Below, piece after piece: positions 26,600-58,895 of a DNA stretch of 64,000 nt. The position numbers and the translations under genes were made by a program. Each line of letters opens with the position of its first letter. The first letter of the stretch is position 1. Under the pieces are notes generated by a model that saw only the letters and a list, made by a program, of their open reading frames with translations, had not been told where the DNA came from and did no database searches. This stretch comes from Ruminococcus sp. YE71 (GTDB lineage: Bacteria > Bacillota > Clostridia > Oscillospirales > Ruminococcaceae): assembly GCF_900119155.1 (NCBI RefSeq), contig NZ_FPIR01000012.1:62001-126000 (forward strand), written 5' to 3'.

Positions 26600-27868
26600 A
26601 TGACAGATATTTTTGATTTTGACCCCCGACTGCTCGAACTTGCGCAGCAGGCGGAGAAAAAGGCGGCGGCGAGCTTTGCAGAGCTTGCCGAGAACGCCGA
26701 ATATAACAGCGCAAAGGTGCTCAAAGCCTTCATCGACAACCGCGTAAGCGAGAGCTGCATGAAGGGTACGACGGGCTACGGTTACGGCGACATCGGACGC
26801 GAGACCCTCGACGCGGTCTACGCGCAGGCTCTCGGTGGCGAGGACGCGGTGGTGAGACACACCTTCGTTAACGGCACTCACGCGCTGTCTACCGCGCTTT
26901 TCGGCGTGCTTCGTCCGGGTGACGAGATGCTTTCGCTGACGGGAAGCCCCTACGACACGATGGAAGAAGTCATCGGCATCCGCGGCGAGAAGGGAAGAGG
27001 TTCGCTGACCGATTTCGGCGTGAAGTACTCTCAGGTGGAGCTGAAAGCCGACGGTACCCCCGACCTTGACGGCATCAGAGCGAACGCGGCAGGCAAGAAA
27101 GTCGGCTACATACAGCGTTCGAGAGGTTACTCGCTGCGTCCGTCGTTCAGGGTGGATGTTATCGGTGAGGTGATAAAGGCGGCTCGCGAAGCGAACCCCG
27201 ACATCATCATTATCGTGGATAACTGCTACGGCGAGTTCGTGGAGAAGCGCGAACCGCTGGCAGTCGGCGCAGACCTCATCGTGGGTTCACTGATAAAGAA
27301 CCCGGGCGGCGGCATCGCGTCAACGGGCGGCTATATCTGCGGCAGAAAAGACCTTGTGGAGCTTTGCGCTGACAGACTCGCCTGCATCGGTGCGGGAAAG
27401 GAAGTCGGCTGTACGCTGACACAGAGCAGAGAGATGTTCATGGGATTTTTCCTCGCTCCGACGGTTGTTGAAGCGGCGCTGAAAACAAGCGTTTTCGCCT
27501 GTGCGCTGTTCGAGAGCCTCGGTTTCAGAACTTTCCCGAGCAGTACAGAAAAACGTACAGATATAATCGCATCTATCTGTCTTGAGAACGAGGAGCGTCT
27601 GACGGCGTTTTGTCAGGGGATCCAGAAGGGTTCACCCGTGGATTCTTTCGTATCGCCCGAAGCGTGGGATATGCCCGGATATGAGAGCCGAGTTATCATG
27701 GCGGCTGGAGCGTTCACGATGGGCGCGTCGATAGAGCTTTCGGCGGATGCACCGATACGTGAGCCGTTTGCGGCATGGCTGCAAGGCGGCATAACATACC
27801 CGTCGGGCAAGATAGGAATATTGACTGCGGCACAGGAGCTTATCAATAAAGGCCTGGCAAAGCTGTAA
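26600..27868 (+). CDS. methionine gamma-lyase family protein (YnbB/aluminium-resistance family)
   Basis: A 422-residue PLP-dependent enzyme of the family often labelled aluminium resistance protein or methionine gamma-lyase-like. Markers are KGTTGYGYGDIGR, the substrate/cofactor segment FVNGTHALSTALFG, the PLP-phosphate region IIIVDNCYGEF, and the Schiff-base Lys in GSLIKNPGGG. The Cys/Met-metabolism enzyme fold is clear, but the real substrate of this subgroup is not known to me. It ends the murD-to-PLP-enzyme run. The next 459 bases contain the structured element described below. Confidence 0.88.
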   Translation: MTDIFDFDPRLLELAQQAEKKAAASFAELAENAEYNSAKVLKAFIDNRVSESCMKGTTGYGYGDIGRETLDAVYAQALGGEDAVVRHTFVNGTHALSTALFGVLRPGDEMLSLTGSPYDTMEEVIGIRGEKGRGSLTDFGVKYSQVELKADGTPDLDGIRANAAGKKVGYIQRSRGYSLRPSFRVDVIGEVIKAAREANPDIIIIVDNCYGEFVEKREPLAVGADLIVGSLIKNPGGGIASTGGYICGRKDLVELCADRLACIGAGKEVGCTLTQSREMFMGFFLAPTVVEAALKTSVFACALFESLGFRTFPSSTEKRTDIIASICLENEERLTAFCQGIQKGSPVDSFVSPEAWDMPGYESRVIMAAGAFTMGASIELSADAPIREPFAAWLQGGITYPSGKIGILTAAQELINKGLAKL

Positions 27869-27899: not shown

Positions 27900-28225
27900 A
27901 AATGAAGCGGAAAACGCCAGAGACTCAGGCGGTCCAGCTGCCGAAGCTGGTCAGAGTCCAGAGGCGGAAGCCTTTGGCGTGGTTTGGAGCAGAGCTCCAA
28001 TTTTCGCCGAAGGCGAAACGAAACGAGTGTCATCCACAAACCACCCGTAAACGAACACTCGAACCCCCAAAAGCCATATGATCGGCAAATCCAAATCATA
28101 CCGTCCAAAAAAGCACGGCATGAGAGCCCCGAACGATACCGCAGTAACAAACGATTTGCCGATCATATTTTGGCGAGAGAGCGCAAGCGATTCGAGCCAA
28201 AGACCAGATCAGGCGCAAGCCTGAT
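27900..28225 (+). ncRNA. candidate structured RNA, copy A
   Basis: A dense set of helices with no plausible ORF. The 3' domain has a 16-bp perfect helix (28076-28091 with 28153-28168) enclosing 61 nt that includes CCGTCC, then a 6-bp helix TTTGGC/GCCAAA (28169-28174 with 28196-28201) capped by a GCAA loop, then a 7-bp helix ATCAGGC/GCCTGAT capped by GCAA. A second copy at 58.6-58.9 kb keeps the same helices, loop lengths and GNRA loops with compensatory changes. The 5' domain (27900-28061) holds further hairpins: CCAGCT/AGCTGG, AGAGGC-GGAA-GCCTTT, GGAGC/GCTCC, TTTCGCC/GGCGAAA and CGAGTGT/ACACTCG. GNRA loops form only on the plus strand, which suggests that strand is transcribed. It could be a noncoding RNA or a MITE; I do not recognise the family. 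Confidence 0.55.
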
Positions 28226-28327
28226 AAAAACCCGACCAAACACAAAAACCAAAAACCAGACCCACCAAACACCCAAGAAACAACACCCCCTATCAAGGAT
28301 AATAACCAACAGAAAGGAATGATACAA

Positions 28328-29287
28328 ATGGCGGAGATCTTTACCGTAACTATAGCAGAGCTTGTCAAGGAACTGAACCTTGAGCTCGTTTATTCCCCGA
28401 AGCCCGCAGAGGAGATATACGTGTCGGACAACGACTGCAACCGTCCCGGATTACAGCTGATGGGCTTCTATGAGTACTTCAACGCAGAACGTATACAGAT
28501 ATGCGGAAACATGGAGTTCGCATACCTTGCGAGCGTTGATGAGGAGACCCGTTACAAGAAGATCGAGACCCTTTTCGCGACACGCATACCTATGTTCATC
28601 GTCGCACGCGGTCACGAACTTTACCCCGAAATGGTCGATCTCGCAAAGAAATACGAGATACCTATCGGCAGGACAAAGGAATCGACCACGACCTTCATGG
28701 CTTCGCTGATAAGCCTGCTGAACGTCCGCCTTGCACCGAGGATAACCCGCCACGGCGTTCTCATCGAGATCTACGGCGAAGGCGTTCTGATCGTCGGCGA
28801 GAGCGGCGTAGGTAAGTCCGAGACCGCTATCGAGCTCGTCAAGAGAGGTCACCGTCTGGTAGCTGACGACGCTGTTGAGATAAGACGCGTCTCGAGCATT
28901 AGTCTTGTGGGCTCGTCCCCCGACAATATCCGCCATTTCCTTGAGATACGCGGTATCGGTATCATCAACGTCCGCAGACTGTTCGGTATGGGTGCCGTTA
29001 AGGTCACCGAAAAGATCGACATGGTAGTCGAGCTCGAACCCTGGGATTCCAACAAGGTCTACGACCGTATGGGCGTTGACAACGAGTTCACACAGATACT
29101 CGGCGTGAGCGTTCCGTCGCTGACCATCCCGATAAAGCCCGGACGTAACCTTGCAGTTATCCTCGAAGTTGCCGCTATGAACAACCGTCAGAAGAAGATG
29201 GGCTACAACGCCGCTCAGGAACTTCTCGATAACCTCGGTCTTCAGGTGGATACCAAGGATAAGGTCAAGAACTGGGACTATATGTAA
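28328..29287 (+). CDS. hprK: HPr(Ser) kinase/phosphorylase
   Basis: A 319-residue bifunctional enzyme that phosphorylates or dephosphorylates Ser46 of HPr (and Crh) in response to glycolytic state, the central switch of Gram-positive carbon catabolite repression. The Walker A is GESGVGKS (residues 157-164), the catalytic His is in TRHG (about 142), and the HprK signature LEIRGIGIINV follows. ATG 28328 is preferred: AAAGGA lies 9 bases upstream, whereas the earlier ATG 28319 touches it. It begins the hprK-PHP-murB-rapZ-whiA cluster. Confidence 0.94.
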   Translation: MAEIFTVTIAELVKELNLELVYSPKPAEEIYVSDNDCNRPGLQLMGFYEYFNAERIQICGNMEFAYLASVDEETRYKKIETLFATRIPMFIVARGHELYPEMVDLAKKYEIPIGRTKESTTTFMASLISLLNVRLAPRITRHGVLIEIYGEGVLIVGESGVGKSETAIELVKRGHRLVADDAVEIRRVSSISLVGSSPDNIRHFLEIRGIGIINVRRLFGMGAVKVTEKIDMVVELEPWDSNKVYDRMGVDNEFTQILGVSVPSLTIPIKPGRNLAVILEVAAMNNRQKKMGYNAAQELLDNLGLQVDTKDKVKNWDYM

Positions 29288-57275: not shown

Positions 57276-58595
57276 ATGAACAGACGATCGGGAAAACAGC
57301 TGATGTCCGTTCTGCTGGCAGTTTTCTGCGTGCTGGCAGTGGGGCTCGGTGTGATGGTGCTCATGTACATGGCGAAGGGAAAGTCATCAGGCATCGAAAA
57401 GAACGCGGCAGAAACGAGCGATGATACCGCAACACAGACTCAGACCGAAACTGCGGCTCAGCAGGAGCAGGTCTCGGAGACTGTTTCGCAGGAGGACGCA
57501 GTCCCTGCGGCGGCAGTTTCCGAAACGGGCGAGGACAGCAAGGCTGAACCTCAGCCCGAAAAGAAGGATGAGATCCGGACCCTCATCGACGGCATGAGCC
57601 TTCACGAGAAGGTGTGTCAGCTGTTCATCGTCACGCCCGAAAGTCTTACGGGCTACGATGTCGTGACGCAGGCGGGCGACGCCACCGAGGAAGCGCTCGA
57701 AAAGTACCCTGTGGGCGGAATCATCTACTTCGCGCAGAATATGGAGGACTACACTCAGCTGAAAGATATGATCTCGGCGACCAAGGAATTCGCCGCAAAA
57801 AGCTGTCCGACACCGCTGTTCGTCAGTGTTGACGAGGAGGGCGGCGACGTGGCAAGGTGCGCGGAGACGGTCGGCACCACGATCTTCCAGCCGATGTATA
57901 CCTACAAGGGCAGTACGACCCTCGCGCACGACAATGCCTGCACGATAGCCGAGGATATCTCGAAGCTGGGCTTCAATCTGGATTTCGCGCCTGTTGCGGA
58001 CACCTGGTCAAACCCCGAGAATACGGTCATCGGTCAGCGTGCGTACAGCGACGATTTTGAAGAAGCCGCCGAGCTCGTTGCGTCTGCGGTCAAGGGTTTC
58101 CACGACGGCGGTGTGCTCTGCACGCTGAAGCATTTCCCGGGTCACGGCAATACTGCCGAGGATTCGCACTACACTTCGGCGTATTCGGGCAGGACTGTGA
58201 TGCAGCTGGAGCAGAACGAGTATCTGCCCTTCGAGAGCGGCATCGAGGTGGGTGCTGACATGGTGATGGTGGGACATATCACCGTGCCGTCCATCGACGA
58301 AGAGCCTGCGTCGGTATCGAGTAAGATAATCACGGGCGAACTGAGGGAAAAGCTCGGTTTCAAGGGCGTCATCATCACCGATTCGCTTGCGATGGGAGCT
58401 GTTGCGGATAATTATGAGAGCGGCGAGCTTGCGGTGAAGGTATTGCAGGCAGGCGGAGATATCCTGCTGTGTCCTGCCGATCTTGATGAAGCGGTCAACG
58501 GCATCGAAGCCGCAGTAAGTAAAGGAACGATCGAAGAATCGCGCATAGACGAAAGCCTGTACCGCATCCTGACCCTGAAAAAGCATATAAAGTAA
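57276..58595 (+). CDS. GH3 beta-N-acetylhexosaminidase (NagZ-like), membrane-anchored
   Basis: A 439-residue enzyme with an N-terminal membrane anchor (about residues 9-31) and a Gln/Glu/Thr-rich spacer to about residue 90, so the catalytic domain lies outside the cell. The GH3 barrel shows SVDEEGGDVARC, the catalytic-dyad His/Asp loop KHFPGHGNTAEDSH, and the nucleophile Asp in ITDSLAMGAV. These are NagZ motifs, pointing to removal of GlcNAc from cell-wall muropeptides. Length without the anchor and spacer is normal for a single-domain NagZ. AGGAGGT precedes the ATG, with its own promoter. Confidence 0.92.
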   Translation: MNRRSGKQLMSVLLAVFCVLAVGLGVMVLMYMAKGKSSGIEKNAAETSDDTATQTQTETAAQQEQVSETVSQEDAVPAAAVSETGEDSKAEPQPEKKDEIRTLIDGMSLHEKVCQLFIVTPESLTGYDVVTQAGDATEEALEKYPVGGIIYFAQNMEDYTQLKDMISATKEFAAKSCPTPLFVSVDEEGGDVARCAETVGTTIFQPMYTYKGSTTLAHDNACTIAEDISKLGFNLDFAPVADTWSNPENTVIGQRAYSDDFEEAAELVASAVKGFHDGGVLCTLKHFPGHGNTAEDSHYTSAYSGRTVMQLEQNEYLPFESGIEVGADMVMVGHITVPSIDEEPASVSSKIITGELREKLGFKGVIITDSLAMGAVADNYESGELAVKVLQAGGDILLCPADLDEAVNGIEAAVSKGTIEESRIDESLYRILTLKKHIK

Positions 58596-58600
58596 AAGCC

Positions 58601-58895
58601 AAATGAAGCGTCCTCGCCAGAGACTAAAAAAAGTTTAGGAGAGAGTCTGGGGGAGACCCTTTTCAAAGGGTCCCCTCAGCCGCCGGAGGCACATAGGGAA
58701 TATCGCTTTGCCCCCCAAAAAGCGCACTATCTTCAAAATCAAACATAAAATCGGCAAATCCCAAGAAAACCGTCCCAAAAGGCGCCAAGTGAAAAAACAC
58801 CACAATCTATATAGAACAACCGATTTGCCGATTTTATTTTCGCGAGAGAGCGTAAGCGATTCGAGTGAAACCCCCAAATCGCTCGCAAGAGCGAT
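58601..58895 (+). ncRNA. candidate structured RNA, copy B
   Basis: Second copy of the element at 27.9-28.2 kb. It shares the 5' start AAATGAAGCG then CGCCAGAGACT. The 3' domain has a 16-bp helix (58745-58760 with 58822-58837) enclosing 61 nt, then a helix TTTCGC/GTGAAA around a GUAA loop, then ATCGCTC/GAGCGAT capped by GCAA. The middle differs from copy A: it contains a family-1 remnant and the hairpin CGCTTT/AAAGCG (about 58704-58726). The region is not coding. It lies between the GH3 stop and the convergent YoaK terminator. Confidence 0.55.
58625..58677. repeat. remnant of a family-1 element end
   Basis: AAAAAAAGTTTAGGAGAGAG followed by GTCTGGGGGAGACCCTTT, TC and AAAGGGTCCCC matches the right end (AGTTTTAGGAAAGGGG plus hairpin) of the full copies. 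Only this end is present. Confidence 0.6.

Follow-up and report, generated by a model that had tools for sequence, protein, structure and literature searches.

A modular family of structured repeats on the sense strand behind genes in Ruminococcus

Two copies of a structured element in Ruminococcus sp. YE71

The window, i.e. the whole stretch of 64,000 nucleotides of Ruminococcus sp. YE71 that was analysed, contains two copies of a structured element that had been described in an earlier note on this DNA, and both were confirmed from the sequence at the positions given there. Each copy is in sense orientation relative to its upstream gene. The genes and the parts of the element are:

26600..27868, plus strand: gene upstream of copy 1, Met_gamma_lyase family; its stop codon lies about 30 nt 5' of the element
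27900..28059, plus strand: 5' domain of copy 1, left-boundary motif ACAAATGAAGCG...CGCCAGAG followed by GC-rich hairpins; both ends approximate; homologous 5' domains occur in other copies
28076..28091, plus strand: 16-bp helix of copy 1, 5' arm, containing the near-invariant ATCGGC
28092..28152, plus strand: spacer of copy 1, 61 nt, A+C-rich (composition measured over other copies)
28153..28168, plus strand: 16-bp helix of copy 1, 3' arm, containing GCCGAT
28169..28201, plus strand: hairpin 2 of copy 1, with lower stem, tandem G-A motif and GCAA loop
28208..28225, plus strand: hairpin 3 of copy 1, GCAA loop; one unit in a variable 3' hairpin series
28319..29287, plus strand: gene downstream of copy 1, HPr kinase (hprK), co-directional
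57276..58595, plus strand: gene upstream of copy 2, glycosyl hydrolase family 3
58600..58719, plus strand: 5' domain of copy 2, CAAATGAAGCGTCCTCGCCAGAGACT...; right end approximate
58745..58760, plus strand: 16-bp helix of copy 2, 5' arm
58761..58821, plus strand: spacer of copy 2, 61 nt
58822..58837, plus strand: 16-bp helix of copy 2, 3' arm
58838..58870, plus strand: hairpin 2 of copy 2, GUAA loop
58878..58895, plus strand: hairpin 3 of copy 2, GCAA loop
58993..59802, minus strand: convergent gene past copy 2, DUF1275

RNA folding placed the 16-bp helix around 61 nt in both copies, as the earlier note had proposed, and recovered the loops it had read, GCAA in copy 1 and GUAA in copy 2 for hairpin 2 and GCAA in both copies for hairpin 3. 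None of 200 dinucleotide-preserving shuffles was as stable as the native sequence, either for copy 1 (z -8.1) or for copy 2 (z -6.9). A direct count of the differences between the two copies gave six double changes, two in helix 1, one in helix 2 and three in helix 3, in agreement with the claim of at least six compensatory substitutions, and helix 2 carries an additional single change from G-C to G-U. The element proved to be longer than originally described, with a 5' domain rich in hairpins that begins at about 27900 in copy 1 and about 58600 in copy 2, and hairpin 2 contains a tandem G-A/A-G internal motif that had escaped notice. Neither window element contains a promoter-like site, and no terminator-like site was found on the plus strand inside either copy.

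A dispersed family with a covarying core

The two copies of the earlier note turned out to be members of a large set. A plain DNA search of the YE71 genome (G000, 4.07 Mb) returned 40 matches, and R1, a covariance model of the 128-position core built from 31 copies (alignment A3), returned 71. Four of the latter, all low-scoring, are shadows at real copies resulting from antisense readings of the palindromic helix, leaving about 67 true copies. The covariance-model search of related genomes that had been suggested gave matches in 9 of 13 genomes of the genus, at 150 or more, 144, 101, 71, 49, 25, 13, 9 and 9 places, with antisense shadows included in some of these counts, and no match in the other 4. 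A search of 148 genomes of the taxonomic family, under stricter filters, matched two, YE71 and G012, both of the same genus. The matches listed by a pattern scan of named genomes included contigs of Ruminococcus MAGs as well as numerous single matches in Proteobacteria and others. The proteobacterial matches (L165, L183, L217 and similar) have a near-constant spacing, often 106 or 116 bases, and perhaps represent a conserved gene rather than the Ruminococcus element.

Comparison with Rfam, for which the earlier note had named ROOL, GOLLD, HEARO, raiA and group II introns, gave no match at the gathering score in the window or in 19 loci with copies. The copy 1 5' domain scored 20.5 bits against Clostridiales-2 RNA (RF02937), whose gathering score is 58.6, and none of ten loci holding other copies matched that family at E<=0.05; the weak score is thus probably a chance match. 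We found no published description of the element in the titles and abstract openings of the open-access literature on Ruminococcus repeats and RNA, which is a weak test.

Regions were sampled from G010 (20), G012 (20), G009 (17), G001 (8), G005 (6), G007 (6) and G004 (3), with the G008 copies (101 R1 matches) left out. Motif-based counts started from the best 109 of 144 R1 matches, almost all of the remaining 35 (42 bits and below) being the palindromic helix read in antisense. Motif-anchored pairing took 156 of 160 copies, and 149 for hairpin 2. Gene sense, similarity, side hairpins, stop distance, upstream-gene clusters, terminators and composition were determined on 136 copies, a set that omits three of the 40 YE71 copies, namely L033, where the conserved block reads ATCGAC, and both window copies.

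Alignment A5 comprises 120 copies from eight genomes at 100 chosen loci; its fit to the model biases it towards the structure. In this alignment 17 of the 27 pairs showed double changes, amounting to 407 cells, and 96.1% of the cells were paired. On each of the five measures, none of 500 shuffles reached the observed value. With the partner shifted by 1-3 columns, double changes fell to 7 pairs and 64 cells at most. Simple motif-anchored pairing of 156 copies gave the same picture; in hairpin 2, six stem positions carried two to five standard pair types each while being paired in 93-97% of the copies. Within the ATCGGC/GCCGAT block, each of the six pairs is kept in at least 108 of 109 copies. 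The middle of hairpin 2 contains the tandem A-G/G-A motif in 45-48 of 149 copies and Watson-Crick pairs instead in 96-97. The core also carries conserved unpaired positions, and there are conserved bases in the spacer, whose length of exactly 61 nt, as reported for the two window copies, is not a constant of the family, full-length core matches ranging from 119 to 146 nt. Apical loops in 138 copies were GNA in 80, GNRA in 42 and GNYA in 7 (other or not found, 9), so that 42 of the 49 tetraloops of G..A type are GNRA.

Several asymmetries distinguish the two strands. Among distinct side hairpins, G..A loops outnumber their mirror form T..C by 29:2 downstream of the core and 25:8 upstream, the ratio in distant flanks being 7:10. 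Hairpins with at least six perfect pairs occur at 5.9-8.0 per kb around the core versus 0.9 in the flanks, i.e. they are 6-9 times denser. Of 149 copies, 112 have G-T and 7 have A-C at the pair beside the inner loop of hairpin 2; another pair is G-T in 30 copies of 7 genomes and A-C in 6. The A+C content of the folded strand is 70% in the core spacer, 65% before the core, 59% downstream and 50-52% in far flanks. A cruder count of GT versus AC over all side hairpins (17:10 for distinct hairpins, 22:20 in flanks) was not decisive, and in G000 alone it was reversed (2 GT versus 7 AC). A-C mismatches recur in G001, G005 and G007 (5, 6 and 12 cells over both helices), some of them perhaps due to a wrong register, and sit badly with RNA as the folded form. 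It is strongly supported that one strand, the messenger-sense strand, is the folded one. For the window copies this is the plus strand, as had been argued from the GNRA loops, and loop ends, G-U pairs and A+C-rich linkers agree. The proposed selection on structure is likewise strongly supported as selection on a folded single strand by the covariation, the loop bias and the fixed G-T pairs.

Sense orientation behind diverse genes

An upstream gene was called for 124 of the 136 copies (12 had none), with the element in sense orientation in 99 cases and antisense in 25. Between co-directional genes the ratio is 61:12 (binomial p 5e-9, copies treated as independent); 22 copies have a convergent and 7 a divergent setting. 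The bias is weak in G010 (7:5). Orientation by replication appears unlikely: contig C33 of the YE71 genome has 10 R1 matches on the plus and 9 on the minus strand, and among its 12 fetched copies 4 of 5 on the plus strand and 6 of 7 on the minus strand are sense, suggesting that genes rather than replication direction set the orientation. The upstream sense genes are diverse and mostly unrelated to each other, with 99 genes in 90 clusters. A called frame overlaps the core in 4 of 136 copies.

In 63 of the 71 sense copies with a recognised start (itself approximate) the element begins no more than 82 nt past the stop codon; these distances omit a further 34 copies in which no 5' motif was recognised. 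An intrinsic terminator lies between stop codon and element in 12 of the 71, at most 10 nt from the element in 9 of them. Scanning 95 sense copies (5 with a short flank were omitted), we found a terminator between gene and element in 14, which are hence not obviously co-transcribed, and 12 downstream matches, several being weak or inside a neighbouring copy. In 72 of the 95 no intrinsic terminator was recognised on either side, and together with the lack of a terminator-like site on the plus strand of both window copies this led us to discard the element as an intrinsic terminator.

Some copies lie among ATP synthase genes. G007 (L126) has one copy between atpB and atpE and a second between atpG and atpD, and G005 (L118) has one at atpB-atpE; atpB, atpE and atpF of L126 were assigned by Pfam, and two genes we take to be atpG and atpD from their translations. 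The atp genes form one operon, so these copies must be transcribed. Judged by position, i.e. by the atp copies and the 61:12 ratio, the elements appear to lie in sense orientation inside transcribed units.

Modules, mobility and mode of action

A full copy consists, in this order, of the left-boundary motif, a conserved stretch resembling AAGTTTAGGAGG, multiple hairpins, the core, and at least one short hairpin joined by ACCC-like linkers; the downstream hairpins form a series of perfect stems with varied arms. Seven places that match the 5' domain were read in search of an internal gene: L143 and L144 have diverged cores, and L141, L142 and L145-L147 have no core at E<=0.01, the core of L141 and L142 being absent between recognisable flanking modules. 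Dimers of copies joined 3'-3' were found in G000 and G010. Inverted ends, ACGTCCCG...CGGGACGT, are present in dimer L038 and in L147, a short inverted pair of left ends, and single copies are without terminal inverted repeats. No constant target-site duplication was seen by eye at the ends of five dimers, and no empty site of the whole element was found among the sampled loci.

Orthologous sites can hold different core types. At L120/L123 (G005/G007), where the coding flanks are similar, the 5' hairpins are nearly the same and the core and hairpin 2 are of different types, and at the atpB-atpE site of the same two genomes the hairpin before the core has two compensatory changes. G001 and G009 have two sites in common, behind genes that by eye we take to be purD and thrB, and each genome has its own sequence type there. 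Coordinate lists showed that, out of 15 genes followed by the element in G012, 11 have a clear counterpart in the YE71 genome (at least 56% identity) and 2 of these 11 carry the element there as well; in a genome of a few thousand genes with about 67 copies this exceeds the chance expectation, in a small sample. The G009 and G001 genes have 11 counterparts in the YE71 genome and 10 in G012, none of them with the element according to the same kind of lists.

Candidate mobilising enzymes were sought in the same genomes. A RAYT query had no match in the YE71 genome, in G001 or in G007, and PF01797 found only an IS200-like fragment in an 80-aa frame in YE71. Single RAYT-like Y1 genes are present in the element-bearing genomes G005, G009, G010 and G012 (L130 1288-1815, L139 1462-1998, L133 1312-1860 and L131 1492-1989), and G008 has a fragment. 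These genes adjoin GTAG-type palindromes (read by eye) and share, in three genomes, a neighbourhood that by eye we take to be purine-gene-like; with their palindromes they are probably a separate, ordinary REP/RAYT system. R1 found no core beside Y1/RAYT genes in 12 fetched loci (L129-L140) at E<=10. A 5'-domain-like stretch without core lies on the minus strand of L139 (583-667), about 0.8 kb from the G009 RAYT gene, and speaks against discounting a RAYT as mobiliser, a role that is not supported for YE71, where no RAYT was found despite roughly 67 copies. Reverse transcriptase (PF00078) was found in 1 of 13 genomes of the genus, G012, and not in G000, G009 or G010; a group II intron or other retro-element was dismissed on its absence from 12 of 13 genomes. 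The L126 spacer (901-1046) of G007 contains a REP-like palindrome, GGCGGGGGCAAGCCCCCGCCCTACA, that is absent at the same site of G005 (L118). It matches palindromes beside the RAYT gene of G005 (L130), which assigns it to the REPs of that other system.

Our best reading, to which we give a probability of about 0.6, is that the elements are non-coding repeats of modular build, interspersed in the genomes of a single genus as far as searched, non-autonomous and probably once mobile, and that they act as folded sense-strand mRNA. With 9 to at least 150 matches per positive genome they are too dispersed for an ordinary single-locus ncRNA gene. They are also too diverged, strand-specific and, mostly, oriented to the upstream gene for a plain MITE, for which near-identity of all copies had been expected; the most similar pair among those listed is 94.6% identical. 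New ncRNA family and MITE, the two options of the earlier note, thus each fit in part. The functional form would be a sense-strand RNA folded within mRNAs, in 3' untranslated regions and gaps between cistrons, transcribed together with the upstream gene. There the fold may act on the mRNA, most likely as a 3'-exonuclease barrier, a processing site or a cistron-separating structure; 3'-end protection, intercistronic processing and insulation are predicted by analogy with BOX, REP and ERIC, as far as these are described in the available excerpts (PMC3049150, PMC2229807). Copies could have spread through a trans-acting enzyme or through recombination exchanging modules from one site to another.

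Structured interspersed repeats are a known kind of element; what appears new is the architecture of the core, the bias to one strand and the exchange of modules. The available part of the report on REPINs/BIMEs with RAYT (PMC3116915) describes many intergenic copies, two inverted conserved blocks with a spacer, compensatory changes and inverted dimers, all of which recur here. Unlike REPINs as described there, the Ruminococcus core is asymmetric, with an extra tandem-GA hairpin on the 3' side only, its spacer holds conserved bases, no RAYT was found in the YE71 genome and the related RAYTs lie beside other GTAG palindromes. Pneumococcal BOX, according to the excerpt available (PMC3049150), resembles the element in being modular with a variable number of inner modules, in its predicted RNA fold, in its over-representation between convergent genes and in a proposed effect on co-transcribed genes; by description it is set apart by the strong sense bias, the core conserved across species and the single copies without terminal inverted repeats found here. 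For ERIC/IRU and Correia/NEMIS the accessible text (PMC2229807) mentions transcribed hairpins said to alter mRNA stability, in an orientation-dependent manner for ERIC, as well as terminal inverted repeats and TA ends, whereas the Ruminococcus element consists of several hairpins around a fixed core.

The same fold could serve mobility only, as single-stranded DNA that is a REPIN-like or other HUH/Y1 substrate for a transposase acting in trans, with co-orientation reflecting tolerated insertions. GNA triloops and GNNA loops are also very stable as DNA hairpins, and the predominance of GNA loops (80 of 138, with 7 GNYA) would suit stable DNA minihairpins. REPINs, too, show compensatory changes according to the available part of their description (PMC3116915), and the two near-invariant inverted blocks, the roughly constant spacer, the many copies and the 3'-3' dimers resemble them, so that, loop stability included, we consider this reading unlikely but well worth keeping in view. 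The single RAYT-like Y1 genes of four element-bearing genomes, the fragment in a fifth and the stretch in L139 would fit it, whereas it is opposed by the genomes in which no RAYT was found (YE71, G001, G007), by the other GTAG-type palindromes that adjoin the RAYT genes and the 12 fetched Y1/RAYT loci in which R1 found no core, by the GNRA share of the G..A tetraloops (42 of 49) and by a 61:12 sense bias that contig strand does not explain.

Compensatory changes may also be mutational in origin if template switching in imperfect palindromes perfects the arms and gene conversion spreads them. The entire stems of hairpin 2 that differ between L120 and L123 amid similar coding flanks, and a downstream series of perfect stems with varied arms beyond the easy yield of point mutation, are what such a process would produce; since it leaves unexplained the loop bias (29:2), the G-T pairs that recur at the same positions, the alternation of tandem G-A with Watson-Crick pairs (45-48 versus 96-97 of 149), the near-invariant ATCGGC/GCCGAT and the A+C-rich linkers, we regard it as doubtful. 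A self-standing ncRNA gene family or a riboswitch-like cis-regulator with a defined regulon would likewise fit a core that is large, structured and conserved, some of its unpaired positions included. This is very improbable in view of the 90 clusters formed by the 99 upstream genes, the lack of a promoter-like site in the two window copies, a 5' end that follows the upstream stop codon rather than preceding a regulated gene, and the negative Rfam result. Strong covariation in a repeat family alone does not prove a free-standing ncRNA gene.

If the elements are indeed modular repeats acting within mRNA, Ruminococcus-type gut bacteria repeat a single RNA architecture from a few to well over 100 times per genome, downstream of unrelated genes and, in certain genomes, within the operon for ATP synthase. 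The family would then be a natural replicated test of how 3' and intercistronic RNA structures affect mRNA, and would allow compensatory change, module exchange and mobility to be told apart. A further, rather speculative reading is a mobile element selected as mRNA, i.e. a sense RNA cassette that colonises the 3' sides of genes without a reverse transcriptase or RAYT in the YE71 genome and exchanges core modules between sites, so that positions can predate the sequence they now hold. If true, this would be a new way in which genome-wide mRNA 3' structures are built, spread and kept uniform.

Small repeats accompany the element in two genomes. In G012 (L049-L068) many copies have tandem AAATAAG/AGATAAG heptamers upstream of the left boundary, and the same heptamer tract occurs without a core near the RAYT gene of that genome (L131 352-385). 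In G010 (L088, L073) small perfect palindromes with varied arms lie inside the arms and loops of a 5'-domain hairpin, forming nested hairpins.
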